The notes below the pieces were generated by a model. That model did no database searches. It saw only the letters and a list, made by a program, of their open reading frames with translations, and was not told the origin of the DNA. Source: Aeromicrobium fastidiosum (GTDB lineage: Bacteria; Actinomycetota; Actinomycetes; Propionibacteriales; Nocardioidaceae). Taken from it: 64,000 nucleotides of DNA. Shown here piece by piece: positions 7,839 to 64,000 of the stretch (position 1 is the first letter of the stretch; each line of letters starts with the position of its first letter). The DNA lies in contig NZ_JAGIOG010000001.1 in NCBI RefSeq assembly GCF_017876595.1, forward strand, positions 434,001 through 498,000. The letters are read 5' to 3'. A program made the position numbers and the translations under genes.

Positions 7839-8333
7839 TCACGGCCGGAGGTGCTTGAACGCGTCGAGGTTGCGGGTCGACTCGCCGCGCGACTCGCGCC
7901 ACTCCCACTCCTTGCGGATCGAGGTGGCGAAGCCCAGCTCGAGGATCGTGTTGAACGACTCGTCGGCGTAGGTCAGCACCGAGCCCAGGAGCCGGTCGAG
8001 CTCGTCGGACGTGACCGACTCCAGCGGCACGCGTCCGTCGAGGTAGATGTCGCCCGCGGAGTCGACCGCGAACGCGACGCCGAACATCTTGAGGTTGCGC
8101 TCCAGCAGCCAGCGGTAGACGACCTGGTGGTTCTCGTCGGGGTTGCGGGCGACGAAGGCATGGACGCCGAGGGCATGCCGGCCGATCTCGAGGCGGCACG
8201 TCGTCTGCAGCTTGCGCTCGCCGGGCAGGGTCACCTCGAACGTGCCGGTCTGGTGCTCGGTGTAGGCCAGCTCGGCGGCCTCGAGCGTGTCGATGATGAC
8301 GCGGCGGACGTCGGACGTCGGGTGCGTGGTCAT
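7839..8333 (-). CDS. YbjN-domain protein
   Basis: The 164-residue product starts [13 protein letters not shown] and has the YbjN/type III secretion chaperone-like fold ([41 protein letters not shown]). The function is unknown in actinobacteria. Its start overlaps the stop of mshA by four bases, and the same gene pair exists in mycobacteria (Rv0486-Rv0487), so it may assist mycothiol synthesis or its regulation. The longer open frame up to 9323 runs antisense-like through mshA and is not real. Confidence 0.85.
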
Positions 8334-45885: not shown

Positions 45886-46959
45886 TCAGGCGGGGCAGGC
45901 CGCGAACAGGACGGGGCCCTCGCCGCTCATGTACGCGGCGAGGTCGGGGTCGACCGAGAAGCGGAGCGTCGTGACGGTGCCGTCGGCCGTGGCGTCGCGC
46001 AGGGCGAGGGTGTCCTCGATGCGTCCGGTGCGACCGATGAACGGCCCCGTCGTGAGGGCCGAGCGGACGCGGAGCTGCTCGGCCGCCTCGGCCGGCGAGC
46101 CGAACGCCGCGACGAAACGGATCGACTGGTGCCCCGGGCCGTCGGTCAGGCCACGGCCCGTGAACGTCGGCGACGTGAGCTCGCCCACCCGGCTGAGCGC
46201 GGCGCGGGCCTGCGCCTGCACGGTCGCATCGGCCTGGGCGAACGACGTGGCCCGGCAGCCGAAGGCACGCCCCTGCAGCACCGCCGTGTCGGAACCGACC
46301 AGAGACTGCGCGACGTCCGCGAGCGGCCGGACGGACAGTGCCGATGCCCTGGTGCCGGCGATCGTCGCCAGCACGTCGGGGACATAGCCGGCGCGGTCGG
46401 CCGCGACGACGAGCCGCCGGTCGCGCACGAACGACAGGTTGCCGAGGGTGCTTGCGAGCTCGGGTCCCACGCTCGACCCGTTGGCCGAGTCGAGCGACCA
46501 GACGTCGCCGCTGCGGGTGTATCCCAGACGGCCGAGCCGCTTCTCGACCGCGTCGATCGACACACCGTCGGAGAACCGTCCCACCATCGCGGCACCACCC
46601 GGTGCCCGGCCGTAGGACTCCCAGTCGAGGTCGGCCGCCGACCAGCCGTAGGCGTCGTGCATGTCCTCGACGAACCCGCCGATGACCGAGCGGGTGGTCA
46701 GGTCGCGCAGCGATGCGTCGTCGGCCAGCGCGGCCCGGCCGGCGGCGGTCGACGCCGAGCCGAGGCCCAGGCTGCGACGGATGCCCGCCCAGTCGGTGAA
46801 GCCCGCGACCACGGTGTCGCGCGGCAGGGCGTCGAGCGCCTGGCTCAGCGCCGGACGCGGATCGGCGGCGCGACCCGAGGCCCACGACCCGGCGGACACG
46901 GCCAGGGCGATCGCGACCAGCGGCGCCACCACGAGGATCAGGGAACGACTAGGACGCAT
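45886..46959 (-). CDS. Exported protein of unknown function
   Basis: The 357-residue product has a signal anchor or signal peptide (about 5-28, LILVVAPLVAIALAVSAG) and a soluble extracellular part with no motif I recognise (AGFTDWAGIRRSLGLG, WESYGRAPGGAAMVGRFSDG). Only two cysteines are visible in the mature part (FGCRATS and AACPA), so one disulfide is possible. ATG 46959 follows a strong AGGAGG site; the upstream ATG at 46980 overlaps that site. It is divergent from the mutT1-like gene. Confidence 0.7.
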   Translation of the reverse strand: MRPSRSLILVVAPLVAIALAVSAGSWASGRAADPRPALSQALDALPRDTVVAGFTDWAGIRRSLGLGSASTAAGRAALADDASLRDLTTRSVIGGFVEDMHDAYGWSAADLDWESYGRAPGGAAMVGRFSDGVSIDAVEKRLGRLGYTRSGDVWSLDSANGSSVGPELASTLGNLSFVRDRRLVVAADRAGYVPDVLATIAGTRASALSVRPLADVAQSLVGSDTAVLQGRAFGCRATSFAQADATVQAQARAALSRVGELTSPTFTGRGLTDGPGHQSIRFVAAFGSPAEAAEQLRVRSALTTGPFIGRTGRIEDTLALRDATADGTVTTLRFSVDPDLAAYMSGEGPVLFAACPA

Positions 46960-47014
46960 GTCGGTCGCACCTCCTGACATCGTCCGTTCATCTCCTCAGG
47001 GGACAATACGCACC

Positions 47015-47902
47015 ATGGCAAGTGAACGGATCACGACCGCAGCGGGTGGAGTCGTGTGGCGCAAGCGTCCCGGGACACGTCGGCCGGAGACCCGCGTCGA
47101 CGTCCTCGTCGTCCACCGCCCGTCGTACGACGACTGGACGTTCCCGAAGGGCAAGACCGATCCGGGCGAGACGCTGCAGCAGACCGCGGTGCGCGAGATC
47201 GGCGAGGAGGCCGGCGTGCGCGTGCGCCTCGGCCATCCGCTCCGGCCCGTGACCTACCCGATCAGCGGCGGCACCAAGATCGTCTCCTACTGGAGCGCCC
47301 GGATGACGGGCACCGACGACGAGACCCCGTTCGTGCCCAACAAGGAGGTCGACGAGATCCGCTGGGTCGGTCTCGCCGAGGCGCGGACGCTGCTGACGTA
47401 CGACCACGACCTCGGACTGCTCGAGGAGTTCCGCGCGCTGCGCGAGCGGCAGGCGCACCGCACCCGGACGCTCGTCGTGCTGCGTCACGCCAAGGCCGAG
47501 GCGCGTTCGGCCGACGTCGACGACCTCGACCGTCCGCTGACCCCGGTCGGCGAGGCGCGCGCCGCAGACCTCGTACCGGTGCTCGACGCGTACGGCGTCG
47601 AGCGGGTCGTGACGAGCCCGGCGGTGCGGTGCGCGCAGACCGTCGAGCCGTACGCCCGGTCGATCGCGACGTTCCTCGAGGTCGACGACCGATTGTCCGA
47701 GCAGACCAGCGTCGTCCACGTGCGGCGATCCCTCGCGACGCTGATGGATCGCAAGAAGCCGGTCGTGCTGTGCAGCCACCGCCCGACCCTGCCCTGGGTG
47801 CTCGACGCGATCGGCACCGAGCTCGAGGAGTTGGCCCCCGGTCAGGGTGTCGTGGTGCACCACCGCGGCGGGGTGATCCACGCCACGGAGAAGCTGCTCT
47901 GA
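47015..47902 (+). CDS. mutT1: Nudix hydrolase fused to a histidine phosphatase (MutT1-like)
   Basis: The 295-residue product has a Nudix domain (about 1-135) with GKTDPGETLQQTAVREIGEE, matching the GX5EX7REUXEEXGU box, and a SixA-type histidine phosphatase domain (about 148-295) with LVVLRHAKAEAR. This two-domain layout is that of mycobacterial MutT1, which clears oxidised guanine nucleotides and also acts on diadenosine polyphosphates. Linkage to ppk is also conserved. The start at ATG 47015 gives MASERITTAAGGVVW. Confidence 0.92.
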   Translation: MASERITTAAGGVVWRKRPGTRRPETRVDVLVVHRPSYDDWTFPKGKTDPGETLQQTAVREIGEEAGVRVRLGHPLRPVTYPISGGTKIVSYWSARMTGTDDETPFVPNKEVDEIRWVGLAEARTLLTYDHDLGLLEEFRALRERQAHRTRTLVVLRHAKAEARSADVDDLDRPLTPVGEARAADLVPVLDAYGVERVVTSPAVRCAQTVEPYARSIATFLEVDDRLSEQTSVVHVRRSLATLMDRKKPVVLCSHRPTLPWVLDAIGTELEELAPGQGVVVHHRGGVIHATEKLL

Positions 47903-48026: not shown

Positions 48027-49133
48027 GTGAACCGCAAGAACCTGCGCATCGCCGCCCCGGCCGCCATGCTCGCCCTCGCACTCGGCCTGAGCGCCTGTGG
48101 CGCCGGCAACGAAGACTCGTCCTCCGACTCGAGCGGCTCCGGAGACTCCGGCAGCAAGATCTCAGGCACCCTGAACGGCGCCGGATCCAGCGCCCAGGAA
48201 GCCGCCGTCGCCGCCTGGAAGAAGCAGTTCCAGACCGCCAACCCCGACGCCACGGTCAACTACGACCCGGTCGGCTCGGGCGGCGGCCGTGAGCAGTTCA
48301 TCGCGGGCGGCGTGCAGTTCGCCGGTTCCGACGCCTACCTGACGGACGAGGAGCTCGCCTCCGCCAAGGAGAAGTGCGGCAGCGACATCGTCGAGGTGCC
48401 CACGTACGTCAGCCCCATCGCCGTGGTCTACAACCTCGACGGCGTCGACGACCTGAACCTCTCGGCCAAGACGATCGGCGAGATCTTCGAGGGCAAGATC
48501 ACCAAGTGGGACGACGCGGCCATCAAGGCCGACAACCCCGACGCCGACCTGCCCGACAGCAACATCACGGCCGTGCACCGCTCGGACGACTCGGGCACCA
48601 CGAAGAACTTCACCGACTACCTCGACAAGGCGTCCGAGGGCGGCTGGAGCGGCGGAGTCGTCGAGACGTGGCCGCTGAAGGGTGGCGAGGCTGCCGAGGG
48701 CACCTCGGGCGTCATCTCCGCCGTCCAGGGCGGCAACGGCACGATCGGCTACGCCGACGAGAGCCAGGCCGGCGAGCTCGGCAAGGCCAACGTCAAGGTC
48801 GGCGACGACTTCGTCGCTCCGACCCCCGAGGCCGCCGCCAAGGTGCTCGACACGGCCAAGCCCGTCGAGGGCCGCGACGCGACCGACATCGCCGTCGACA
48901 TCGACCGCACGACGACCGAGTCAGGCGTCTACCCCATCGTCCTCGCGTCGTACCAGATCGCCTGCCAGACGCAGAAGGACGCCGCGACGGCCGATCTCGT
49001 CAAGGGCTGGCTGACCTACGTGACGAGCACCGAGGGTCAGTCCGCTGCGGCTGAGACCGCCGGCTCGGCACCGCTCTCGGGCGACTTCGCCTCGAAGGTC
49101 CAGGCCGCGGTCGAGACGATCAAGGCTTCCTGA
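48027..49133 (+). CDS. pstS: Phosphate-binding lipoprotein PstS
   Basis: The 368-residue product has a lipobox LSAC with C24 and a mature periplasmic-binding-protein fold. Phosphate-site motifs are LNGAGSSAQEAA, GGGREQFIAGGVQFAGSDA and RSDDSGTTKNFTDYL. It captures phosphate at the outer membrane face for PstCAB. GTG 48027 follows GAGGGAC. A triple PHO box precedes it, and a 19-bp hairpin between it and pstC may hold pstS mRNA at a higher level than the rest of the operon. Confidence 0.95.
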   Translation: MNRKNLRIAAPAAMLALALGLSACGAGNEDSSSDSSGSGDSGSKISGTLNGAGSSAQEAAVAAWKKQFQTANPDATVNYDPVGSGGGREQFIAGGVQFAGSDAYLTDEELASAKEKCGSDIVEVPTYVSPIAVVYNLDGVDDLNLSAKTIGEIFEGKITKWDDAAIKADNPDADLPDSNITAVHRSDDSGTTKNFTDYLDKASEGGWSGGVVETWPLKGGEAAEGTSGVISAVQGGNGTIGYADESQAGELGKANVKVGDDFVAPTPEAAAKVLDTAKPVEGRDATDIAVDIDRTTTESGVYPIVLASYQIACQTQKDAATADLVKGWLTYVTSTEGQSAAAETAGSAPLSGDFASKVQAAVETIKAS

Positions 49134-54288: not shown

Positions 54289-55740
54289 TCACGCGACGCC
54301 GGTGTCGTCTCGGTCGCGGGCGCGCCGCACCAGGTCGAGCAGCCCCATCGCGAGCGCCACGACGACGAAGGCGATCGTGACGTGCAGGCTGTACGACAGG
54401 GCATCGGCGAAGTCGCCGTCGCTCGACCGCACCCGCTCGAAGAACAGGGCCAGCACGATCGCGACGCCGATCGCCGACCCGACCCGTTGCGCAGTCTGCA
54501 GCAGTCCCCCACCGGCACCGGCGCGCGCCGGCTCCACCTCGTCGAGCGAGAGCGTGATGTTGGGGGTGATGACGAGCCCGCCGCCGAGGCCGGCCAGCAG
54601 CAGGACGGGTGCCAGCTTGAGACCGACGTCGCCCGACAGGTGCGGGACGAGGAGGTCGACGACCACGAGCGCCACGGTGATCAGCGTCAGGCCTGTCACG
54701 ACGAGCAGCCGTCCGAACCGCTCGACGAGGCGTCCGCCGACCAGTGCGGACGTGGCCGACCCGACGGCGAACGGCAGCTGTGCGAGACCGGCCTCGAGCG
54801 CCGAGTAGCCGAGGCCCTGCTGCAGGTAGAGGGTCAGGACGATGAAGATCGACGTGAAGCCCGCGAAGTAGAACGTGCCGAGGCCCACGCCGAGGACGAA
54901 CGACCGCACCTTGACCAGCGAGAGGTCGAGCAGCGTCTCGCGACCCGTCGACGTCCAGCGACGCTCCCACAGGACGAACACGGCCAGCAGCACCGCCGAG
55001 ACGCCCAGCAGCCACCACGGGCGCTGCGACAGCGAGTCGTCCTGGCTGCCCGACACGAGCGGCAGCAGCACGAAGAACATCGCGGCACCGAACAGGACGA
55101 CGCCGACGGGATCGAGCGACTGCCGCGGCCCGCGTGCGGACACCGGGAGGTAGCGGTGCGCGAGCACCAGGAGCAGGATGCCGATCGGCACGTTGACGAA
55201 GAACACGAGCCGCCAGCCCGACTCCTGCCCACCGAGCTGGATCAGCAGGCCGCCGAGCACGGGGCCGATCGCGGTCGAGACGCCGATCGTCGCGCCGAAC
55301 AGGCCGAACGCCCGACCGCGCTCCGGTCCCTTGAACAGGTTCTGGATGAACCCGGACACCTGCGGCGTGATGAGACCCCCGCCGATGCCCTGGACGACGC
55401 GCGCCGCGGCGATCCACAGCGGCTCCTGCGCGGCCCCGCACACCGCACTCGCGACGGTGAACACCGCCACGCCGACCATGAAGACGGTGCGCCGGCTCCG
55501 GGCGTCGCCGAGACGACCGGCCGGCACCAGCACGATGCCGAAGGCCAGGGCGTAGCCCGCGACGACCCACTGGATCGTGCTGTTGCCGGCGTCGAGCCCG
55601 TCGCGGATCGAGGGCAGGGCGACGTTGACGATGCTGACGTCGAGCAGCGTCATCGAGCCGGCCAGCAGGCACACGGCCAGGGCGTGCCACCGCCGCGCGC
55701 GCTCCTCGGGGGTCAGCTCGGGCTGATCGGTCTGGGTCAC
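54289..55740 (-). CDS. DHA2-family MFS exporter, second copy
   Basis: The 483-residue product has 14 predicted helices. MTLLDVSIVNVALPSIRDG marks helix 1, GRLGDARSRRTVFMVG motif A, and IGPVLGGLLIQLGG motif C. It is distinct in sequence from the exporter at 10459-12078 and has no adjacent regulator of the same strand. GTG 55740 (VTQTDQPELTPEERARRWH) was chosen; the frame is open to 55845, but that part is Arg/Gly-rich and untypical. The substrate is unknown. Confidence 0.9.
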   Translation of the reverse strand: MTQTDQPELTPEERARRWHALAVCLLAGSMTLLDVSIVNVALPSIRDGLDAGNSTIQWVVAGYALAFGIVLVPAGRLGDARSRRTVFMVGVAVFTVASAVCGAAQEPLWIAAARVVQGIGGGLITPQVSGFIQNLFKGPERGRAFGLFGATIGVSTAIGPVLGGLLIQLGGQESGWRLVFFVNVPIGILLLVLAHRYLPVSARGPRQSLDPVGVVLFGAAMFFVLLPLVSGSQDDSLSQRPWWLLGVSAVLLAVFVLWERRWTSTGRETLLDLSLVKVRSFVLGVGLGTFYFAGFTSIFIVLTLYLQQGLGYSALEAGLAQLPFAVGSATSALVGGRLVERFGRLLVVTGLTLITVALVVVDLLVPHLSGDVGLKLAPVLLLAGLGGGLVITPNITLSLDEVEPARAGAGGGLLQTAQRVGSAIGVAIVLALFFERVRSSDGDFADALSYSLHVTIAFVVVALAMGLLDLVRRARDRDDTGVA

Positions 55741-55827
55741 GCGTCCACGGTAGGTGCAGCCCGTCCTGTGCGCTGGGCGTCGGCGTCGGCCACCGACGCG
55801 ATGCCAGCAGCGGGGTCCCGTGAGACA

Positions 55828-55847
55828 GTAGGACCTAAGTCCCAAAG
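55828..55847. promoter_or_regulatory. DevR/DosR-like palindrome before the GAF kinase gene
   Basis: On the minus strand TTTGGGACTTAGGTCCTAC fits the core of the mycobacterial DevR box (GGGAC, six bases, GTCC) at about 14 of 20 positions by eye. It sits 11-30 bases before the start codon, overlapping a possible -10/ribosome-site region, where binding would more likely repress than activate. Confidence 0.4.
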
Positions 55848-55857
55848 GGGGGATCGC

Positions 55858-57066
55858 ATGGTGCAGGATGTCGTCGAATCAGCCGTCGTCGACCACGAGC
55901 TCGAGCGCTATCGCGCCCTCGAGCGGTCATCCGGTCGTGATCTGCAGTCACTCGTCGACCTGATCGCGCAGATCTGCGATGTGCCGCACGCCGTCATCAA
56001 CATGATCGGCAGCACCGACCAGCACCAGATCGTGGCGACGGGCTTCGAGCCGTCGATCTGCGCCCGAGAGGACTCGATGTGCGCCATCGTGATGGACGAG
56101 CCCCGGGCGATCGTGGTCGCCGATGCCAGCGTCGATCCACGTTTCCGGCACAACCCCTTCGTCACGGGCGAGATCGGCACGGTGCGGTTCTATGCGTCCG
56201 CTCCGATCGTCACGCCTGACGGGGTACCGATCGGTCGCCTGTGCGTGTTCGACGTCGTCCCGCGCACCCTGTCCGACCTGCAGAAGCAGGCCTTGGGGGT
56301 CATGGCCTCCCAGGTCATGGACCTGCTGGAGCTGCGGTTCCGCAGCCAGGAGCTCGAGGACTCCCTGCGCGAGCTGACCCAGGCGCGCGACGACCTGCGC
56401 CGCTCGAACGAGCACCTGACACTGTTCGCCGGACAGGTCAGTCACGACCTGCGCACGCCGCTCACCGCGATCCTCGTCAACGCGGAGCTGTTGGCGACCG
56501 AACCCGTCGTCGCGAGCGATGCCGACGTGGCGCAGATGGTCGGGGCCGTCGAGCAGGCCGGGCACCGGATGGACTCGATGATCCAGCGGATGCTGTCGTT
56601 CGCGCAGCAGGGTGGACGGTTGCGCAGCGCGGACGTCGACCTCCGGTACGTGCTCGACCTGGCGCTGAAGGACGTCGCTCCGCTCTCGCAGCGCAGCGAC
56701 GCCCAGATCACGGTCGGCGAGCTGCCCCTGGTGATCGGCGACGCCGACCTCCTCTACTCCGTGCTGCTCAACCTCATGACCAATGCGATCAAGTTCGCCC
56801 GTCCGGATCGACGGCCAAAGGTGACCGTGTCGGCCGAGCAGCGCGAGCGGCATTGGCGCATCCGCGTCGACGACAACGGCATCGGCGTGCCGGAGGACCG
56901 GCGCGAGTCGATGTTCGACCTCTTCACGCGTGACGACCACGACCGTGCGGGCCATGGCATCGGGCTGGCGACAGCGCGGCAGATCGTCGAGGCACACGGC
57001 GGGACGATCGCCATGGAGGGCAACGTCGCGGGCGGCACGAGCGTCTGGTTCGACCTGCCGCTGTAG
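55858..57066 (+). CDS. GAF-domain sensor histidine kinase
   Basis: The 402-residue soluble kinase has an N-terminal GAF domain (about 18-160; TGFEPSICAREDSMCAIVMD with two nearby cysteines), a short coiled coil (about 162-190), HisKA VSHDLRTPLTAIL with H196, N-box NLMTNAIKFAR, G1 DDNGIGVPED and G2 GHGIGLATARQIVEAHGG. Without a membrane segment it must sense a cytosolic signal. No response regulator is adjacent. ATG 55858 follows an AAAGGGGGG site. The frame upstream of 55858 runs antisense to the MFS gene and is not coding. Confidence 0.9.
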   Translation: MVQDVVESAVVDHELERYRALERSSGRDLQSLVDLIAQICDVPHAVINMIGSTDQHQIVATGFEPSICAREDSMCAIVMDEPRAIVVADASVDPRFRHNPFVTGEIGTVRFYASAPIVTPDGVPIGRLCVFDVVPRTLSDLQKQALGVMASQVMDLLELRFRSQELEDSLRELTQARDDLRRSNEHLTLFAGQVSHDLRTPLTAILVNAELLATEPVVASDADVAQMVGAVEQAGHRMDSMIQRMLSFAQQGGRLRSADVDLRYVLDLALKDVAPLSQRSDAQITVGELPLVIGDADLLYSVLLNLMTNAIKFARPDRRPKVTVSAEQRERHWRIRVDDNGIGVPEDRRESMFDLFTRDDHDRAGHGIGLATARQIVEAHGGTIAMEGNVAGGTSVWFDLPL

Positions 57067-57099
57067 CCCCGAGCACTGGTCGGCAGGTGGTGCCGAAGT

Positions 57100-57152
57100 G
57101 TGGAGATCGTGGGGAAGTGATGTGGAGATCGCGTGGATCGCGGCTCCATAAG
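57100..57152 (+). promoter_or_regulatory. Promoter P1 of the TasA/SipW locus: four GTGG half-sites and -10
   Basis: GTGG half-sites start at 57100, 57109, 57122 and 57133 (steps 9, 13, 11). CATAAG at 57147-57152 is the -10-like hexamer, 14 bases after the last half-site, giving a leader of about 47 bases. Steps are identical to those in P3, and the proximal 27 bases are identical in P2. Confidence 0.75.
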
Positions 57153-57205
57153 TTGGTGCCACAAGCCAACGCAGCACCCGCCGCCCACGACTCCAAGGAC
57201 CCGCC

Positions 57206-57733
57206 ATGAAGAGCAAGAAGATCCTCCTCCCCCTCGCCACCCTCGTCGCCGCCGGCGCCATCGCCGTCGGATCGGGTGCCACGTTCACCTCGACCAGCGC
57301 CAACACGATCAGCTCGGTCACCTCCGGCACGCTGACGCAGAGCAACTCCAAGGCCGACGCGGCCATCTTCAACCTCAGCAACATCAAGCCCGGCGACGTC
57401 GTCAACGGCAGCCTCACGATCAAGAACACCGGCAGCCTGCCCGCCACGTTCTCGCTGACCGAGACCTCCTCGGTCAACGGCTTCGCGGCGGCCAACCTGA
57501 CGCTCGACATCACCAACACCACGACCGGGACCAAGGTCTGGTCGGGCACGTTCGGCGACCTGGTCGACGGCGCGAAGACCCCCCTCGGCCTCGTCGAGCC
57601 CGGCGTGTCGAACGTCTACACGTTCAGCGCCAAGCTGGCCACCGCGACGCCGAACACCGATCAGGGCAAGACCGCCTCGGCCGCCTTCCAGTGGGACTCG
57701 GTCCAGGCCGACGCCACCACCACCAACCAGTAA
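57206..57733 (+). CDS. TasA/camelysin-like matrix fibre protein, copy 1
   Basis: The 175-residue exported protein has a signal peptide with a SipW-type end (VAAGAIAVGSGATFTST). The mature domain keeps the TasA landmarks: VTSGTLTQSNSKADAAIFNL, NLSNIKPGD at residues 56-64 and LTIKNTGSLPATFSL. In Bacillus, TasA builds extracellular amyloid-like fibres and is processed by the dedicated peptidase SipW. The first 88 residues are almost identical to copy 2, while the middle differs. A promoter with GTGG repeats precedes it, a stem-loop follows, and then the sipW-like gene. Confidence 0.88.
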   Translation: MKSKKILLPLATLVAAGAIAVGSGATFTSTSANTISSVTSGTLTQSNSKADAAIFNLSNIKPGDVVNGSLTIKNTGSLPATFSLTETSSVNGFAAANLTLDITNTTTGTKVWSGTFGDLVDGAKTPLGLVEPGVSNVYTFSAKLATATPNTDQGKTASAAFQWDSVQADATTTNQ

Positions 57734-57739
57734 GCCCCT

Positions 57740-57763
57740 CCGGGGTGCCACCCGGCACCCCGG
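57740..57763. terminator. Stem-loop between tasA copy 1 and the signal peptidase gene
   Basis: CCGGGGTGCC (57740-57749) pairs with GGCACCCCGG (57754-57763) around ACCC, six bases after the stop. There is no U-tract, so it more likely attenuates or stabilises than fully terminates, leaving less peptidase than fibre protein. Confidence 0.7.
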
Positions 57764-57793
57764 CCCGATGACCGGTCCCGAAAGGACGACATC

Positions 57794-58381
57794 ATGAGCC
57801 GCGCCCTTCGTACCCGCCGCAGCGCCGCCTCGCGCGCCGGCTCGTGGCTGGTCAACATCGTCATGGTCGTGGCGACGGTGGCCGGCGTCGGCTACCTCGC
57901 CCCCAGCCTGTTCGGGTTCGAGCGCTACGTCATCACCGGCGGATCGATGTCGGGGACGTTCGAGAAGGGCTCCATCGCCTTCGAGCAGCGCGTGCCGGTC
58001 GAGGACGTCAAGATCGGCGACGTCATCACGTACCTGCCGCCCGCCGACAGCGGCACGAACCACCTGGTCACCCACCGCGTCATCTCCGACACCGTGCTGC
58101 CGACCGGAGTCCGCCAGCTGCAGACGCAGGGCGACGCCAACCCCGACCCCGACCCGTGGAAGTTCAGCCTGACCGAGAGCACGCAGCCGGTCGTCCGCAC
58201 CACGGTGCCGTACGCCGGATGGGTCTTCGTCGCCCTGGCCGACCGTGAGATCCGCATGGTGGCGATCGGCGTCCCCGCCGCGCTCATCGCCCTCGCCAGC
58301 CTCGTCGAGCTGACCCGTGGCGTGCGCGGGGTGCGGGTCGAGCGACGCGAGAAGCGCCACGCGGCTCTCGTCACCGCCTGA
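57794..58381 (+). CDS. sipW: SipW-type signal peptidase I
   Basis: The 195-residue product has a membrane helix at about 17-40, the catalytic serine in ITGGSMSGTF (S51) and a histidine (LVTHRVIS, H94) in place of the lysine of standard signal peptidases, the mark of SipW/eukaryotic-type enzymes. A second helix lies near 154-173. It should cleave the TasA-like proteins and the Ig-like protein outside the membrane. It lies between the two tasA-like genes. ATG 57794 follows GAAAGGA. Confidence 0.9.
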   Translation: MSRALRTRRSAASRAGSWLVNIVMVVATVAGVGYLAPSLFGFERYVITGGSMSGTFEKGSIAFEQRVPVEDVKIGDVITYLPPADSGTNHLVTHRVISDTVLPTGVRQLQTQGDANPDPDPWKFSLTESTQPVVRTTVPYAGWVFVALADREIRMVAIGVPAALIALASLVELTRGVRGVRVERREKRHAALVTA

Positions 58382-58439
58382 CGCCTACGCCACTCAGCAC
58401 AACCCGGCTCAGCACGACCCCGCACATCGACACCGAACC

Positions 58440-58492
58440 GTGTACATCGTGGGGAGATCGTGGGGAGATCGCGTGGATCGCGGCTCCATAAC
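58440..58492 (+). promoter_or_regulatory. Promoter P2 of the TasA/SipW locus
   Basis: Half-sites start at 58440 (GTGT variant), 58449, 58460 and 58473 (steps 9, 11, 13; total 33, as in P1 and P3). CATAAC at 58487-58492 is the -10-like hexamer, again 14 bases after the last half-site. Confidence 0.72.
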
Positions 58493-58579
58493 GTTGGTGT
58501 CACCAGCCGAGGAACGCTCCCGGCCAACGACCTCCCCCCACCTCGGACCTTCAGGGTCCACCACCCGAAGGGCACCACC

Positions 58580-59107
58580 ATGAAGACCAAGAAGATCCTC
58601 CTCCCCCTCGCCACCCTCGTCGCCGCCGGTGCCATCGCCGTCGGATCGGGTGCCACGTTCACCTCGACCAGCGCCAACACGATCAGCTCGGTCACCTCCG
58701 GCACGCTGACGCAGAGCAACTCCAAGGCCAACGCCGCGGTCTTCAACCTCACGAACATCAAGCCCGGCGACGTCGTCAACGGCAGCCTCACGATCAAGAA
58801 CACCGGCAGCCTGCCCGCCACGTTCTCGCTGACCGAGACCTCCTCGACCAACACGTTCACGGCGTCCAACCTGTCGATGACGATCACGAACGCCACGACC
58901 AACAAGGTCGTCTACACCGGCACGTTCGGCGGACTGGTCGACGGCACCAAGAACGACCTCGGCCTCGTCGCACCGGGCGTCTCCAACGACTTCGTCTTCA
59001 GCGTCAAGCTCGACCAGGGCACCACGAACGTCGACCAGGGCAAGACCGCCTCGGCCGCGTACCAGTGGGACTCGGTCCAGGCCGACGCCACCACGACCAA
59101 CCAGTAG
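58580..59107 (+). CDS. TasA/camelysin-like matrix fibre protein, copy 2
   Basis: The 175-residue product matches copy 1 in length, signal peptide and TasA landmarks (NLTNIKPGD) and in its last residues (SVQADATTTNQ), but residues from about 90 to 155 have diverged. The DNA of the 5' half is nearly the same in both copies, pointing to recent duplication or gene conversion. ATG 58580 is used; the frame is open to 58460 but that covers promoter P2. A strong terminator follows. Confidence 0.88.
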   Translation: MKTKKILLPLATLVAAGAIAVGSGATFTSTSANTISSVTSGTLTQSNSKANAAVFNLTNIKPGDVVNGSLTIKNTGSLPATFSLTETSSTNTFTASNLSMTITNATTNKVVYTGTFGGLVDGTKNDLGLVAPGVSNDFVFSVKLDQGTTNVDQGKTASAAYQWDSVQADATTTNQ

Positions 59108-59150
59108 GTGCACGACACCCCCGAACCCGCGGCTTTCCCCCGAGCCGCAT

Positions 59151-59192
59151 GAGAAGCGCCGCCGACCCACTCCCGGGTCGGCGGCACTTCTC
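59151..59192. terminator. Terminator after tasA copy 2
   Basis: GAGAAGCGCCGCCGACCC pairs with GGGTCGGCGGCACTTCTC with one C-A mismatch around ACTCCC. It separates the tasA2 unit from the Ig-like protein unit, which has its own promoter. Confidence 0.88.
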
Positions 59193-59232
59193 GTCGTCCC
59201 GGGGATCGATCACCCCGTGGGCTCGCGCGCAG

Positions 59233-59287
59233 ATGTGGAGAACGTGGGGAACTCGCGTGGAGTTCGCGTGGATCGACTCTCCCTAGG
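59233..59287 (+). promoter_or_regulatory. Promoter P3 of the TasA/SipW locus
   Basis: GTGG half-sites start at 59233, 59242, 59255 and 59266 (steps 9, 13, 11, identical to P1). A TAGGCT -10-like hexamer at 59282-59287 would put the transcript start at or next to the ATG at 59296, so the mRNA is probably leaderless. Confidence 0.72.
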
Positions 59288-59295
59288 CTCGACAC

Positions 59296-61119
59296 ATGAG
59301 CTCGACGACTCCCCGACACCGCCAGGTGGCAGCCCGGAAGACCTCCCGGTTGCCCCTCGCGCTCGCTGCCCTGGTCGCAGTCGTCGCCGCCGTCGCGCTC
59401 ACCGGATCGTCCTCCGCCTCCTTCGTCTCCACCTCGGCGTCGACGGGCACGGTCAGCGCCGCGGCCGACTGGACGCCGCCGACCGTCGCGGTGTCGGCAC
59501 CGGCGTCGATCGTCAAGGGCATCGTCACCGTCACCGCCACGGCGTCCGACGCCGACTCGGGCGTCGCCGGCGTCAACATCCAGCGCGCGGCCGCCGGCAG
59601 CTCCGACTGGACGAGCCTGTGCATCACCAACACGTCGCCCTTCTCCTGCAGCTGGGACACCACCCAGGTCGCCGACGGCGCCTACGACCTGCGCGCCATC
59701 GCGGTCGACCGGGCGGCCAACTCGACCACGTCCGCCGTCGTGAGGACCACGGTCGCCAACAACGTCACGGTGGTGCTGGCCCGTCCCGGCGACGTCCTCA
59801 GCGGCACGGCGACCACCACGACCACCGTCACCGGTGCCGCCGGCATCACCCCGACGGTCCGCGTCGAGTACGCGCCGACCGCCACCACGACGTGGACGAC
59901 GCTGTGCACCGCGGCGACCTCGCCGTTCACCTGCTCGGTCAACACCGCGAACCTGCCCAACGGCACGTACGACCTCCGCTCCGTCGCCGTGTCCGGCTCG
60001 ACGACCTACACCTCGGCCGTCGTCAGCAGGGTCGTCGTCGACAACCTCGCCCCCACCGTGACGATGACCGACCCGGGCACTGCGCTCAAGGGCACCAAGA
60101 CCTTCACGGCCACCGCCGCCGACACGCACTCGGGCATCGCCAAGGTCGTCATCCAGTCGTCGACCGGTGGCACCTGGAGCGACCTGTGCACCATCACGAG
60201 CAGCGCGACCACGTCGTACTCGTGCTCGGTCGACACCGGCGCGCAGCTCCCCAACGGCACGTACAGCTTCCGCGCCCAGGCGACCGACCGCGCGGGCAAC
60301 GCCACCACGTCCGCCGCGATCACGGGCCGCGTCGTCCAGAACACCGTCTCGACCGTCGTGCTGAACGCTCCGAGCACCTACCTGCGCGGGACGGTCCCCT
60401 TGACCGCCACCACGACCACGAACGGGACCATCAGCTCGGTCAGGTTCCAGCGCTCGCCCGCCGGGGCCGGCACGTGGACCGACATCTGCACCGACACCAC
60501 CTCGCCGTACACGTGCTCGTTCACGACGAACGGCACGGCCGGCGTGGCCGACGGCACCTACGACCTGCGCGCCGTCCTGACCGACTCCGACGGCCGCACG
60601 ACCACCTCGACCGTCGTCACGAACCGCATCGTCGACAACACGGCAGCCAGGGGCGTCGACGTCCAGACCACGAACGGCGGCACCGCCGGGCGCATCGACG
60701 CCGGCGACACCATGGTCTTCACGTTCAGCGAGCAGATGGACCTCAGCTCGATCTACGCCGGCTGGTCGGGCTCCGCGACGTTGGGCACCGTGCGCGTTCG
60801 TGGCGCCCTCTCCGGTGCGTCCAACGTGCTCGACGTCACCGCTCCCTCGAACGTCCGGCTCGGCACCGTCGACCTCATCGAGAACTTCAGCCTGCTGTTC
60901 GACAACACGGCCGACATGTCGATGACGGCGTCCACGGTCACGGTCGACGGCGTCGCCCGCACCGTCGTCACGATCAAGGTCCTGAGCGCGAGCGGCTACC
61001 AGGTCAGCTCCCCCGCGACGATGGTGTGGACGCCCTCCGCCGCCGCGCTCGACCTGGCCGGCAACCCGACCAGCACCGCCACGGTGTCCGAATCCGGCCA
61101 GCCCGACCTGGACTTCTGA
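59296..61119 (+). CDS. Secreted multi-domain Ig-like protein with a TasA-like N-terminus
   Basis: The 607-residue product has a signal peptide whose end (SSSASFVSTSASTGTVSA) resembles that of the TasA-like proteins, so it is a likely SipW substrate. Four Ig-like modules of about 95 residues follow. Each carries a cysteine pair about 10-14 residues apart (LCITNTSPFSC, LCTAATSPFTC, LCTITSSATTSYSC, ICTDTTSPYTC) and a DGTYDLRA-type strand. A fifth, distinct C-terminal domain (GDTMVFTFSEQMD) ends with LDLAGNPTSTAT, as in bacterial Ig-like SwmB/Big modules. No wall anchor is present. A role as an adhesin or matrix scaffold is inferred. Confidence 0.85.
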   Translation: MSSTTPRHRQVAARKTSRLPLALAALVAVVAAVALTGSSSASFVSTSASTGTVSAAADWTPPTVAVSAPASIVKGIVTVTATASDADSGVAGVNIQRAAAGSSDWTSLCITNTSPFSCSWDTTQVADGAYDLRAIAVDRAANSTTSAVVRTTVANNVTVVLARPGDVLSGTATTTTTVTGAAGITPTVRVEYAPTATTTWTTLCTAATSPFTCSVNTANLPNGTYDLRSVAVSGSTTYTSAVVSRVVVDNLAPTVTMTDPGTALKGTKTFTATAADTHSGIAKVVIQSSTGGTWSDLCTITSSATTSYSCSVDTGAQLPNGTYSFRAQATDRAGNATTSAAITGRVVQNTVSTVVLNAPSTYLRGTVPLTATTTTNGTISSVRFQRSPAGAGTWTDICTDTTSPYTCSFTTNGTAGVADGTYDLRAVLTDSDGRTTTSTVVTNRIVDNTAARGVDVQTTNGGTAGRIDAGDTMVFTFSEQMDLSSIYAGWSGSATLGTVRVRGALSGASNVLDVTAPSNVRLGTVDLIENFSLLFDNTADMSMTASTVTVDGVARTVVTIKVLSASGYQVSSPATMVWTPSAAALDLAGNPTSTATVSESGQPDLDF

Positions 61120-61508
61120 TGCGCCGCCGCAGCACGACGTCGAGGATCACGACGGCGACGATGGCCTTGCTCTGCGTGGCGCAGCTCGGGCACCTGGTCG
61201 CCGACGGCCACACCCCCTACATCGCCGCGCTGCTGCTCACCCTGCTCGTGCTGCTCGTCGCGACGACCGTCAAGCTGCATCGCGACGACTGCGTCGAGTC
61301 GCGGATGAGCGCCGCGGTCCTGGCGCTGCTCAGCGGCGGAGGTGTCGCCCTGACCGCGACGATCGGTCTGCCGGGCCAGTCCGACAACGGTCTGGACCTG
61401 CTCGGCGCCGCGACGCTCGTCCTGTCGGTGACAACGCTGACGACGCTCGCCCTGACCGCACGACGGCAGGCTCGCGAGACCGGTCCGAGGTCACCGTATG
61501 CTCTCTGA
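61119..61508 (+). CDS. Small polytopic membrane protein
   Basis: The 129-residue product has about four hydrophobic helices (LLCVAQLGHLVADGH, IAALLLTLLVLLVATTVKL, AAVLALLSGGGVALTATIG, LLGAATLVLSVTTLTTLAL) and no recognised domain. Its ATG shares a base with the stop of the Ig-like protein gene and its end overlaps the response regulator gene, so it is tightly embedded in the operon. It may help sense the envelope state or assist the kinase; this is inference. Confidence 0.75.
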   Translation: MRRRSTTSRITTATMALLCVAQLGHLVADGHTPYIAALLLTLLVLLVATTVKLHRDDCVESRMSAAVLALLSGGGVALTATIGLPGQSDNGLDLLGAATLVLSVTTLTTLALTARRQARETGPRSPYAL

Positions 61509-62235
61509 GATGCCCCACCTCGTGCTGATCGTCGAGGATGACGACCAGATCGCCGCGCCCCTCGTCCGTACGCTCGAGCGGGAGGGATACGCCGTCGAGC
61601 GAGTCGCTGCCGGGCTCCCCGCGGTCGAGCGGGTCCGCGCGGGTGACGTCGACCTCGTGCTGCTCGACCTCGGTCTCCCCGACGTCGACGGGCTCGAGGT
61701 GTGTCGCCGCATCCGCGCCAACGGCTACCTCGGCGGCGTCCTGATCCTGACCGCACGAGGCGGCGAGCTCGACCGGGTCGTCGGGCTCGACGTCGGTGCC
61801 GACGACTACCTGGCCAAGCCCTTCGGCCTCGCGGAGCTGCTCGCACGGGCGCGGGCCCTGCTGCGCCGCAGCGCGCCGGCAGTCGACGCACCGGCAGCTG
61901 TCTCCGCCCCGGCTCCGGCTCCGGCCGTCGACCACGGCACGAGCCTGCGCATCGACACCGGGTCGCGCCGCGTCTGGGTGGGTGCGGACGAGCTCGCCGT
62001 GACGGCCAAGGAGTTCGACGTGCTGGCACTGCTGCACTCCTCGCCCGGGGCGGTCTTCACCCGCGAGAGGGTCATGGACGAGGTGTGGGACGAGAACTGG
62101 TTCGGCTCCACCAAGACCCTCGACACGACGATCGGACGACTCCGGCAGAAGCTCGAGGACAGCGGCACGTCGTCGCGCATCGTGACGGTGCGGGGCGTCG
62201 GCTTCAGGCTCGAGAGCGAACCGGCGGATGCGTGA
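61498..62235 (+). CDS. OmpR-family response regulator of the matrix locus
   Basis: The 245-residue product has a receiver domain with D57 in VLLDLGLPDVDG, IVEDDD near the start and KPFGLAEL, then an Ala/Pro-rich linker of about 25 residues (APAAVSAPAPAPAVD), then a winged helix (VTAKEFDVLALLHSSPGAVFTR, VRGVGFRLE). OmpR-type regulators bind direct repeats with about 10-11 base spacing, so the GTGG arrays in P1-P3 are candidate targets. ATG 61498 overlaps the preceding gene by 11 bases; ATG 61510 is possible. It overlaps the kinase gene by eight bases. Confidence 0.9.
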   Translation: MLSEMPHLVLIVEDDDQIAAPLVRTLEREGYAVERVAAGLPAVERVRAGDVDLVLLDLGLPDVDGLEVCRRIRANGYLGGVLILTARGGELDRVVGLDVGADDYLAKPFGLAELLARARALLRRSAPAVDAPAAVSAPAPAPAVDHGTSLRIDTGSRRVWVGADELAVTAKEFDVLALLHSSPGAVFTRERVMDEVWDENWFGSTKTLDTTIGRLRQKLEDSGTSSRIVTVRGVGFRLESEPADA

Positions 62236-63466
62236 ACGCCTGGTCGTGACGCTGGTTTCGATGACGGTCGGCATCCTCGCGGTGTTCGGCGTCGTCCGCG
62301 CCTACTCGACCGCAGACCTGGTGCGCGATCAGGAACGCGTCAGCGTCCAGCAGACGGCTGACCTAGCTGCCGTCGCGATCGCCGCACGCCTCCAGAGCGG
62401 TGCTCCGGTGACGCCGACCTTCCTGGCCTCGATGGCCGGCGAGGACCGACGCATCACCTTCGTCGACGGCCAGGACGCCCGCACGTCCGGGGGTAGCGCC
62501 GGGAGCGACGGCGTCGACGCGCGGCGAGCCGTCGAGGGCGGGGGACGCGTGACGGTCTCCGAGTCGGGGTCGGTGCAGTCCGAGCGGGTCTCGGACGCCC
62601 TGCTGCCGCTGGTGCTGCTGGGGCTGGCCCTGGCCGCTGCGGCAGCCGTCATCGGCTGGCTCCTGGCTCGTTTGTTCGCGCGGCCGTTCCGCCTGCTCGC
62701 CGATGACGCGACCCGCATCGGCGACGGGCACTTCGACGTCAAGGTGCACCACTCGTCGATCAGCGAGGCCGAAGACCTGGGCAACGCGCTCAGGCGGGCC
62801 GCGAGCCAGCTCGACACGCTCGTCCGGCGCGAGCGCGAGCTGGCGACCGTGGCGTCCCACGAGCTGCGCACCCCCATCACGGCGCTGCGACTGTCGCTCG
62901 AGGACCTCAGCCTGTGGCCACAGACGCCGGCCGATGTCGCCGAGGAGCTGCAGCGGGGGCTGACCGAGGTCGACCGCCTCAGCGACGTCGTCAGCACGCT
63001 GCTCGAGAGCGGCGACCGCAGCCAGCTCGGCGCCGTCTCGGAGGTCGAGCTGCGCGAGCTGGCCGGCGACGCCGTCGACCGCTGGGCCGACCGCGCCCGC
63101 CACCTCCGCCGGCCGCTCCTGCTGGGATCGGCGGCCCCTCTGCGTGCCACGGTCGTCCGCGCGTCGGTCGACCGCATCCTCGACGAGCTCGTCGAGAACG
63201 CCCTCCTGCACGGCACCGGCACCGTGACGGTCGACGCCGTCGTGGGTCACACGTATGCCGGGATCGGAGTCTCCGACGAGGGTGCCAAGGCCTTCCAGAC
63301 CGGGGTGCTGCACGCCTCGCCCGCGGGCGGCAGCCACGGGCTGACCGAGGCCGCCGTGCAGGCCGAGTCGCTGGGCGGGTTCATCAGTGTCATCGACGTG
63401 CCCGAGACCCGGGTGGTGCTGGCCCTGCCGTTGCCGGGCCGCGCAACGGACCACCATCCCGTGTGA
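62228..63466 (+). CDS. Membrane sensor histidine kinase of the matrix locus
   Basis: The 412-residue product has two membrane helices (about 6-26 and 123-146) bracketing an extracellular sensor of roughly 95 residues, then HAMP (ARPFRLLADDATRIGDG), HisKA VASHELRTPITALRL with H211 and an ATPase domain. The N box is recognisable (DELVENALLHG), but the G1 box is degenerate: VSDEGAKAFQ replaces the usual DxGxG, and the domain ends early at VVLALPLPG. It may have weak kinase or mainly phosphatase activity. It overlaps the regulator gene by eight bases. Confidence 0.88.
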   Translation: MRERLVVTLVSMTVGILAVFGVVRAYSTADLVRDQERVSVQQTADLAAVAIAARLQSGAPVTPTFLASMAGEDRRITFVDGQDARTSGGSAGSDGVDARRAVEGGGRVTVSESGSVQSERVSDALLPLVLLGLALAAAAAVIGWLLARLFARPFRLLADDATRIGDGHFDVKVHHSSISEAEDLGNALRRAASQLDTLVRRERELATVASHELRTPITALRLSLEDLSLWPQTPADVAEELQRGLTEVDRLSDVVSTLLESGDRSQLGAVSEVELRELAGDAVDRWADRARHLRRPLLLGSAAPLRATVVRASVDRILDELVENALLHGTGTVTVDAVVGHTYAGIGVSDEGAKAFQTGVLHASPAGGSHGLTEAAVQAESLGGFISVIDVPETRVVLALPLPGRATDHHPV

Positions 63467-63485
63467 CTCAGGTCACGCGGAGCCA

Positions 63486-63514
63486 TTGACTTCTCGACGT
63501 CCGTGGGCTGGCAT
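63486..63514 (+). promoter_or_regulatory. Possible promoter of the GDSL lipase gene
   Basis: TTGACT (63486-63491), a 17-base spacer and TGGCAT (63509-63514) fit a housekeeping promoter, 39 bases before the start codon. Confidence 0.4.
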
Positions 63515-63552
63515 GGCTGGAGCGACACGGCGTCGCCGGGGATGGGGACGAC

Positions 63553-64000
63553 ATGCGCAGACTTCTGGCCGGGGCACTCACGATGACGATCGTCGCGGCG
63601 CTGGCACCGCTGTCCGTGGCCGGTGCGGCCACCACCGGCGGCGATGTCTTCGACCGCGGCCCGGGCGGGCTGAGATACGTGGCGCTGGGCGACTCCGCCG
63701 CTGCCGGCCCGATCATCCTCCCCCAGCGCGCCGGCTCCCCATGCTTCCGCAGCGAGCGGAACTTCGCGACCGCGACCGCCGCCGCGCTGGACGTCCGCGC
63801 GTTCACCGACGTGACCTGCTCCAGCGCCACGGTCGACAACATGACCGTCCCGCAGGACTCGGAGCCTCCACAGCTCGATGCGCTGCGCCCCGACACGACG
63901 CTCGTGACCCTCGGCCCGATCGGGGCCAACGACGCCGGCATCGTCAGCACCGTGACCGGGTGCCTGGTGCCCGGCTGCAAGGAGCGCGACGGCCGGACCG
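63553..64000 (+). CDS. Secreted GDSL/SGNH-family lipase (partial, cut by window end)
   Basis: About 149 residues are visible before the window ends. A signal peptide (about 1-26, ending AGAA) is followed by block I YVALGDSAAAGP with the nucleophile serine, a TCSSATVDNM segment, and block III LGPIGANDAG with the Asn of the SGNH set. It resembles secreted actinobacterial lipases that hydrolyse ester lipids outside the cell. Cysteines at CFRSE, TCSS and CLVPGC suggest disulfides. The C-terminal His block lies beyond the window. The start is ATG 63553. Confidence 0.85.
   Translation, partial: MRRLLAGALTMTIVAALAPLSVAGAATTGGDVFDRGPGGLRYVALGDSAAAGPIILPQRAGSPCFRSERNFATATAAALDVRAFTDVTCSSATVDNMTVPQDSEPPQLDALRPDTTLVTLGPIGANDAGIVSTVTGCLVPGCKERDGRT

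Follow-up and report, generated by a model that had tools for sequence, protein, structure and literature searches.

A TasA/SipW-type locus with a linked two-component system and putative operators of its own in Aeromicrobium fastidiosum

Gene set and organization of the locus

A stretch of 64,000 nucleotides (nt) of the Aeromicrobium fastidiosum genome (contig NZ_JAGIOG010000001.1, positions 434,001 to 498,000 of the forward strand; hereafter the window, whose own numbering is used) carries at 57206-63466 seven genes, all on the + strand, which encode two TasA-like proteins, a SipW-like signal peptidase, a surface protein with immunoglobulin (Ig)-like domains, a small membrane protein, a response regulator and a histidine kinase. 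An earlier interpretation made from the letters of the window (the sequence-only reading) described the region as a TasA/SipW-type locus with a two-component system of its own, and the data below support this interpretation. The genes, with lengths in amino acids (aa), are:

57206-57733, + strand: tasA-like A, candidate fibre subunit with a SipW-type signal peptide (175 aa; PF12389, TasA profile, AlphaFold2 model)
57794-58381, + strand: sipW-like signal peptidase of the endoplasmic reticulum (ER) type (195 aa; TIGR02228, S51/H94/D114, SEC11 profile match)
58580-59107, + strand: tasA-like B, candidate second fibre subunit (175 aa; PF12389, identity to A)
59296-61119, + strand: Ig-repeat surface protein with a SipW-type signal, four Ig-like domains and a conserved C-terminal domain (607 aa; Big_7, four stretches)
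61119-61508, + strand: small membrane protein (4 hydrophobic segments, simple hydropathy script)
61498 (alternative start 61510)-62235, + strand: OmpR/PhoB-type response regulator (Response_reg, Trans_reg_C)
62228-63466, + strand: sensor histidine kinase (HisKA and, just, HAMP above cut-off; HATPase_c below)

The order of the two tasA-like genes on either side of the sipW-like gene is as originally described. The ATG of the small membrane protein gene overlaps the stop codon of the Ig gene and the kinase gene overlaps the regulator gene by 8 nt; open reading frames (ORFs) and Pfam domains confirm every gene of the original description.

Both TasA-like proteins are members of Pfam family PF12389 (29.1 bits for A and 26.3 bits for B, gathering score 22.5), and B is 82% identical to A. 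A TasA-family profile run against the PDB retrieved only Bacillus subtilis TasA, in the form of 8aur (E 3.3e-6) and 5of1 (E 3.5e-6), the sole two distinct sequences matched up to E = 1. Scores with the TasA equivalog model NF046066 are 26.3 and 26.5 bits, and neither protein reaches the cut-off of 450. The AlphaFold2 model features a beta-sandwich core. Residues 1-50 are modelled with low confidence; the N-terminus is conserved, and is a candidate donor strand. The closest named relative at the locus is Aeromicrobium endophyticum, whose tasA-like protein is 96% identical.

The peptidase had been noted to carry His instead of Lys. Ser51, His94 and Asp114 are invariant in all 31 aligned sequences, the window included, and probably form the catalytic triad. 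The protein scores 63.9 with TIGR02228 (cut-off 51.85), and its profile matched in the PDB, at E <= 0.01, only SEC11A and SEC11C, subunits of the signal peptidase complex. The equivalog model of Bacillus SipW (NF046067) gives 61.6 bits, below the 190 needed for membership. Judged by sequence, the peptidase is of the ER type (Ser-His-Asp in place of Ser-Lys) and SipW-like.

Big_7 domains were identified by Pfam in four stretches of the Ig protein, for which an alignment of 37 sequences was made. Its AlphaFold2 model has a mean pLDDT of 88.1, with low confidence in the N-terminal stretch. The N-terminus of the mature protein, which is disordered, is more similar to the candidate donor strand of TasA than shuffled sequences are, which fits the claim that Ig and TasA-like proteins begin alike; this comparison omits loci L051 and L054, and its extension to distant loci excludes 3 of 8 for want of the anchor pattern, anchors being picked after inspection of the sequences and kinship being ignored in both. 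The TapA model TIGR04087 matches residues 23-59 only (12.3 bits, cut-off 80). By analogy, the Ig protein may work like TapA; it is not a member of the TapA family.

The C-terminal domain has no PDB match in a profile search. No Pfam match was found in the window protein, and single weak matches only in 21 members scanned. That the domain is a second TasA fold was considered and rejected, as profile similarity is missing (hhalign probability 0.3); a fold comparison run on the complete Ig model covered residues 60-449, barely touching this domain. The consensus end is ExGxxDxDF. The tail E-x-G-x-x-D-x-[DE]-F is terminal in 11 of the 15 loci that feature the domain outside Aeromicrobium, and deviates in L160, L162, L163 and L164.

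Conservation in Nocardioidaceae

SipW matches were found in 131 of 197 genomes of the family, 43 of them at E 1.7e-42 or better. The gene set was analyzed in 48 loci (47 fetched stretches and the window). The neighbourhood search suggested by the sequence-only reading shows that tasA, sipW, Ig, regulator and kinase genes lie on one strand in 38 loci, the exceptions being L035, L038, L044, L064, L073, L074, L076, L077, L078 and L079. A small ORF with hydrophobic segments starts at the Ig stop codon in 31 of the 40 loci listed with Ig and regulator genes on one strand; L053, where other genes fill the interval between the two, was left unsearched. Reduced sets (tasA, sipW, regulator and kinase without Ig) reside in other stretches of the family, such as L117, L118, L125 and L126.

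Direct repeats and putative promoters

A 59-nt repeat, overlooked in the sequence-only reading, precedes both tasA-like genes and the Ig gene, at 57093, 58433 and 59228. Across loci the repeat is made of four GTGGA units at 11-bp spacing, followed by a -10-like TAGCGT 16 bases after the start of the last unit. The elements in the window are:

57098-57158, + strand: putative operator/promoter A (repeats from 57100; -10-like TAAGTT at 57149; profile E 7.0e-15)
58438-58497, + strand: putative operator/promoter B (repeats; -10 TA at 58489; profile E 4.9e-14)
59233-59286, + strand: putative operator/promoter C (-10-like TAGGCT at 59284; Ig start codon at 59296; profile E 2.6e-13)

A sigma-70 consensus scan of 57000-59400 found no promoter. 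The -10-like element of promoter C ends 7 bases 5' of the Ig start codon, and Ig arrays start at -61 or -62 in many loci; from these distances, the Ig mRNA may be leaderless.

Distances between GTGG words peak at 11, 22 and 33 upstream of tasA and Ig genes; the peaks are absent upstream of the regulator and kinase genes, as of the genes of a linked GAF-domain histidine kinase described below. Four-unit arrays scoring at least 16 of 20 precede 41 of 60 tasA genes (0 of 600 shuffles) and 26 of 43 Ig genes (0 of 430 shuffles). Corresponding figures are 2/48 for sipW, 0/42 for the regulator, 0/39 for the kinase, 0/21 for the GAF-domain kinase and 0/7 for major facilitator superfamily genes. In the 48 stretches, 71 of the 75 arrays scoring at least 17 precede a tasA or Ig gene by no more than 230 bp. 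A background simulated for 47 of the stretches contained two arrays scoring at least 16, and none at least 17.

The reach of the motif was evaluated in whole genomes. A simple pattern (two repeats and the -10) occurs with at most one mismatch at three places in the genome, all in the locus; with up to three mismatches there is no enrichment over the reversed control (234 vs 366). A promoter profile was built from 42 of 62 listed arrays, the window and L033 being left out on purpose. The other omissions were mostly arrays that did not align in register or lacked a -10-like TA, but also included two Ig arrays, those of L044 and L057, that do align in register. In the complete 3.93-Mb genome of A. 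fastidiosum the profile retrieved the three sites listed above, all in the locus, and the next match has an E-value of 0.34; these values are rough, coming from a shortened calibration. The three locus promoters appear to be the only clear targets found in the genome for the putative regulator.

The same profile was run on 30 chosen relatives, i.e. 12 Aeromicrobium genomes with the locus, 11 lacking it (SipW matches, if any, no better than E 2.2e-17), and 7 other genomes of the family. With A. fastidiosum included, all 13 Aeromicrobium genomes that have the locus show matches, against none of the 11 that lack it. The former include G140, whose locus is broken up by contig ends and yielded no sipW match. 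Of the 7 further family genomes, G170, G029 and G072 match, G061, G004, G028 and G021 do not. No system proteins were matched within about 8 kb of the sites in G029 (E 1.1e-8; L131, about 8286-8331) and G072 (E 7.1e-4; L132, about 7873-7917). A phylum scan under stricter filters (396 genomes, E <= 1e-6) retrieved only A. fastidiosum and G019, which has the locus.

The regulator and its association with the arrays

Response_reg and Trans_reg_C domains score above cut-offs in the regulator (94.8 and 83.8 bits), which belongs to the OmpR/PhoB type; its conservation was examined in 42 sequences. In the kinase, HisKA (41.1) and HAMP (25.2) pass the Pfam cut-offs, HATPase_c (20, cut-off 26.4) falls short. 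The glycine-box region of the kinase is only partly conserved among 37 relatives.

Co-occurrence of regulator and arrays was assessed in 75 of 83 stretches, those featuring a TasA-family gene with enough upstream DNA; L035 lies at a contig edge, and L127, L153, L156, L158, L159, L161 and L164 have no tasA match. Regulators were taken as orthologous at profile scores above 250 bits. Where an orthologous regulator is present, an array scoring at least 16 precedes tasA in 34 of 48 stretches, and one scoring at least 15 in 41. In stretches lacking it, the counts are 3 and 5 of 27. Statistically, in these sequences, the arrays follow the orthologous regulator. Direct binding of the regulator to the arrays, as the sign of the regulation, is inferred. 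The overlapping string places the regulator and kinase genes downstream of operator C and the Ig gene, which would make positive autoregulation the simplest reading.

Regulators of the OmpR/PhoB type bind to direct repeats, whose period is often 11 bp, as illustrated by GTTCACC-N4 for Streptomyces coelicolor PhoP (PMC4832192, PMC7866108). For Streptomyces PhoP, arrays of four 11-nt units are known (PMC7866108). The PHO boxes resemble the Aeromicrobium elements in pairing an OmpR/PhoB regulator with arrays of 11-nt direct repeat units. In contrast, the Aeromicrobium repeat is GTGGA-N6, and its clear targets are limited to one locus.

Age of the gene set

A class-wide search with the TasA profile retrieved 39 of 394 genomes at E <= 1e-6; outside the family, only G308 scored better than 1e-20. 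In the Serinicoccus locus L038, tasA is 67% identical, and sipW and regulator genes adjoin it. In the phylum, 17 of 396 genomes contain a match to the profile of the Ig C-terminal domain. Once the two Aeromicrobium loci are set aside, tasA, sipW and Ig genes lie in order on one strand in 8 of 15, all outside the class. Of the other seven, three stretches (L153, L161, L164) hold neither tasA nor sipW, one (L163) holds a weak tasA but lacks sipW, and three (L156, L158, L159) are short contigs. Arrays scoring at least 16 are missing from all 15 loci, as are regulators above 250 bits (best 139 in L150 and 149 in L164). With triads outside the class devoid of both, the tasA-sipW-Ig triad looks older than its dedicated control, which by the same comparison appears to have been added in or near Nocardioidaceae.

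Linked genes and other features

Two further features lie at or near the locus:

about 55858-57066, + strand: GAF-domain histidine kinase (Pfam GAF, HisKA, HATPase_c; start inferred from alignment)
57740-57763, + strand: GC-rich hairpin in the gap between tasA-like A and sipW (folding energy z -2.7)

The GAF-domain kinase gene, just upstream of tasA-like A, had gone unmentioned in the earlier description. A gene of this type lies on the same strand, within the stretch, in 18 of the 38 full loci. It is found upstream in those Aeromicrobium loci that have one, and directly after the kinase gene in L051, L055, L063, L065, L066 and L067. It is best viewed as a linked gene of uncertain membership in the locus, and may provide a second input to the regulator.

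The hairpin is a possible processing or attenuation site, and could set tasA in excess over sipW. Hairpins with z < -2 occur in 14 of 41 tasA-sipW gaps folded (mean z -1.35 over the 41). Those of other loci have different sequences. Although strong in many loci, the hairpin is absent in others, and is for this reason not claimed as a conserved or general feature.

No Rfam families were found in 55500-64000. Some 8-10 kb upstream of the locus reside genes for a PBP_like_2 binding protein (48027-49130) and a NUDIX/histidine phosphatase protein (46661-47899).

Discussion

The locus shares with tapA-sipW-tasA of B. subtilis a TasA-family subunit with a SipW-type signal peptide, a signal peptidase of its own, and a partner of the Ig fold with a donor strand, here predicted, at the N-terminus. 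TapA has an Ig fold that donates a strand, and is described, in the part available of PMC10151520, as able only to start filaments. Compared with their B. subtilis counterparts, the Aeromicrobium subunits are shorter (175 aa) and score far under the threshold of the TasA equivalog model, the partner combines four Ig domains with an additional C-terminal domain and falls outside the TapA model, and the locus has a linked OmpR-type pair with its own putative operators. Control in B. subtilis involves SinR. In Bacillus cereus, the excerpt available indicates, SinR controls sipW, tasA and calY (PMC4292775). The sipW-tasA-capP-calY region of this species similarly combines, as far as the sections available of PMC13082335 and PMC4292775 describe it, a pair of TasA/camelysin paralogues with SipW and another secreted factor for assembly; CapP, made of a DUF4047 domain and tandem repeats, is unlike the Ig partner, and no linked two-component pair is mentioned in those sections. 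Archaeal bundling pili (7ueg) and the Sulfolobus 0406 filament (7pnb) differ from the Aeromicrobium system in being archaeal. The TasA literature, to judge by the parts available, centres on Bacillus, with mention of archaeal relatives. Titles and opening lines of abstracts on TasA/SipW combined with Actinobacteria, camelysin, Nocardioides or donor strand describe no such actinobacterial system, in keeping with the sequence-only reading. What is claimed as new is the combination and its regulation, not the presence of TasA relatives in the phylum.

The locus is probably a self-contained, autoregulated surface fibre system of the TasA donor-strand type. The regulatory half is well supported by sequence comparisons; the fibre half is argued from homology. 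Shared N-termini and gene linkage suggest that both TasA-like proteins and the Ig protein would be exported, the SipW-like peptidase cutting off their signal peptides; cleavage would be expected near residue 25 in the TasA-like proteins and near residue 40 in the Ig protein. Removal would free a short N-terminal strand on each TasA, completing the fold of the next subunit, and a fibre would grow by donor-strand exchange as in B. subtilis TasA. Since the Ig protein has a predicted TasA-like N-terminal strand before closed Ig domains, it could donate, and not accept, a strand. It would most likely start or cap the fibre, the role of TapA in B. subtilis, and display on it four Ig domains and the conserved C-terminal domain. 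Kinase and regulator, made from the Ig operon, would act on the 11-bp repeat arrays to activate all three promoters; as their own promoter is among the targets, positive feedback would result. Surface adhesion or a biofilm matrix is the most likely use, the biofilm function in itself being a guess.

An alternative is that the products of the locus do not form fibres but serve as coat proteins, either monomeric or assembled into sheets, which would be S-layer-like or loosely secreted, and that the regulator tunes cell-surface composition under envelope stress. The evidence concerns relation to the TasA family, not polymerisation; a fold search returned many other beta-sandwiches at similar Z, and the best NCBIfam matches of the kinase, all below cut-off, are RstB, EnvZ and BaeS. 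The N-terminal stretch common to TasA and Ig proteins, of low confidence in both models, is in contrast hard to explain without strand donation, and small subunits rich in T and S, for which 9 of the 38 full loci hold two to four tasA copies per stretch, would be well suited to form the bulk of a fibre. Coat proteins are on this balance unlikely.

The arrays might also be bound by another regulator, the two-component genes being linked passengers, as L044, L064, L074, L076 and L121 score at least 15 with no regulator in the same stretch. A search of the five genomes found, however, an orthologous regulator elsewhere in the genome or on another contig in four (58-78% identity): G157 (L044), G013 (L074) and G135 (L076), all with arrays scoring at least 16, and G102 (L064). 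In the fifth, G085 (L121, array score 15), the closest regulator is only 43% identical. L121, where tasA-like and kinase genes are adjacent and neither sipW nor regulator matched, is possibly a decaying locus. The 11 Aeromicrobium genomes without locus, free of profile matches, encode only more distant regulators (best matches 40-50% identical), and 11-bp direct repeats are typical of OmpR/PhoB regulators. Binding by another regulator is thus improbable. Lastly, the notion that the TasA-like proteins are camelysin-type metalloproteases, prompted by the Pfam name of PF12389 (Peptidase_M73) and by scores above its gathering threshold, is rejected as very improbable, because both window proteins lack His and Cys and the HExxH motif occurs in 0 of 59 sequences.

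Beyond the self-regulated fibre system favoured here, a broader and tentative picture, somewhat short of an even chance, may be drawn. A tasA-sipW-Ig fibre module spread through the phylum would have as starter or tip a new class of multi-Ig partners, marked by a TasA-like donor strand and the undescribed ExGxxDxDF domain. In Nocardioidaceae the module would have been captured by a dedicated two-component system, with the locus alone as regulon, possibly monitoring fibre assembly at the envelope. If the fibre interpretation is true, this compact locus of an actinobacterium, with a regulator to itself and three clear operators, would lend itself readily to studying how donor-strand fibres are turned on, and a function open to testing could be assigned to the Ig partner and to its C-terminal domain.

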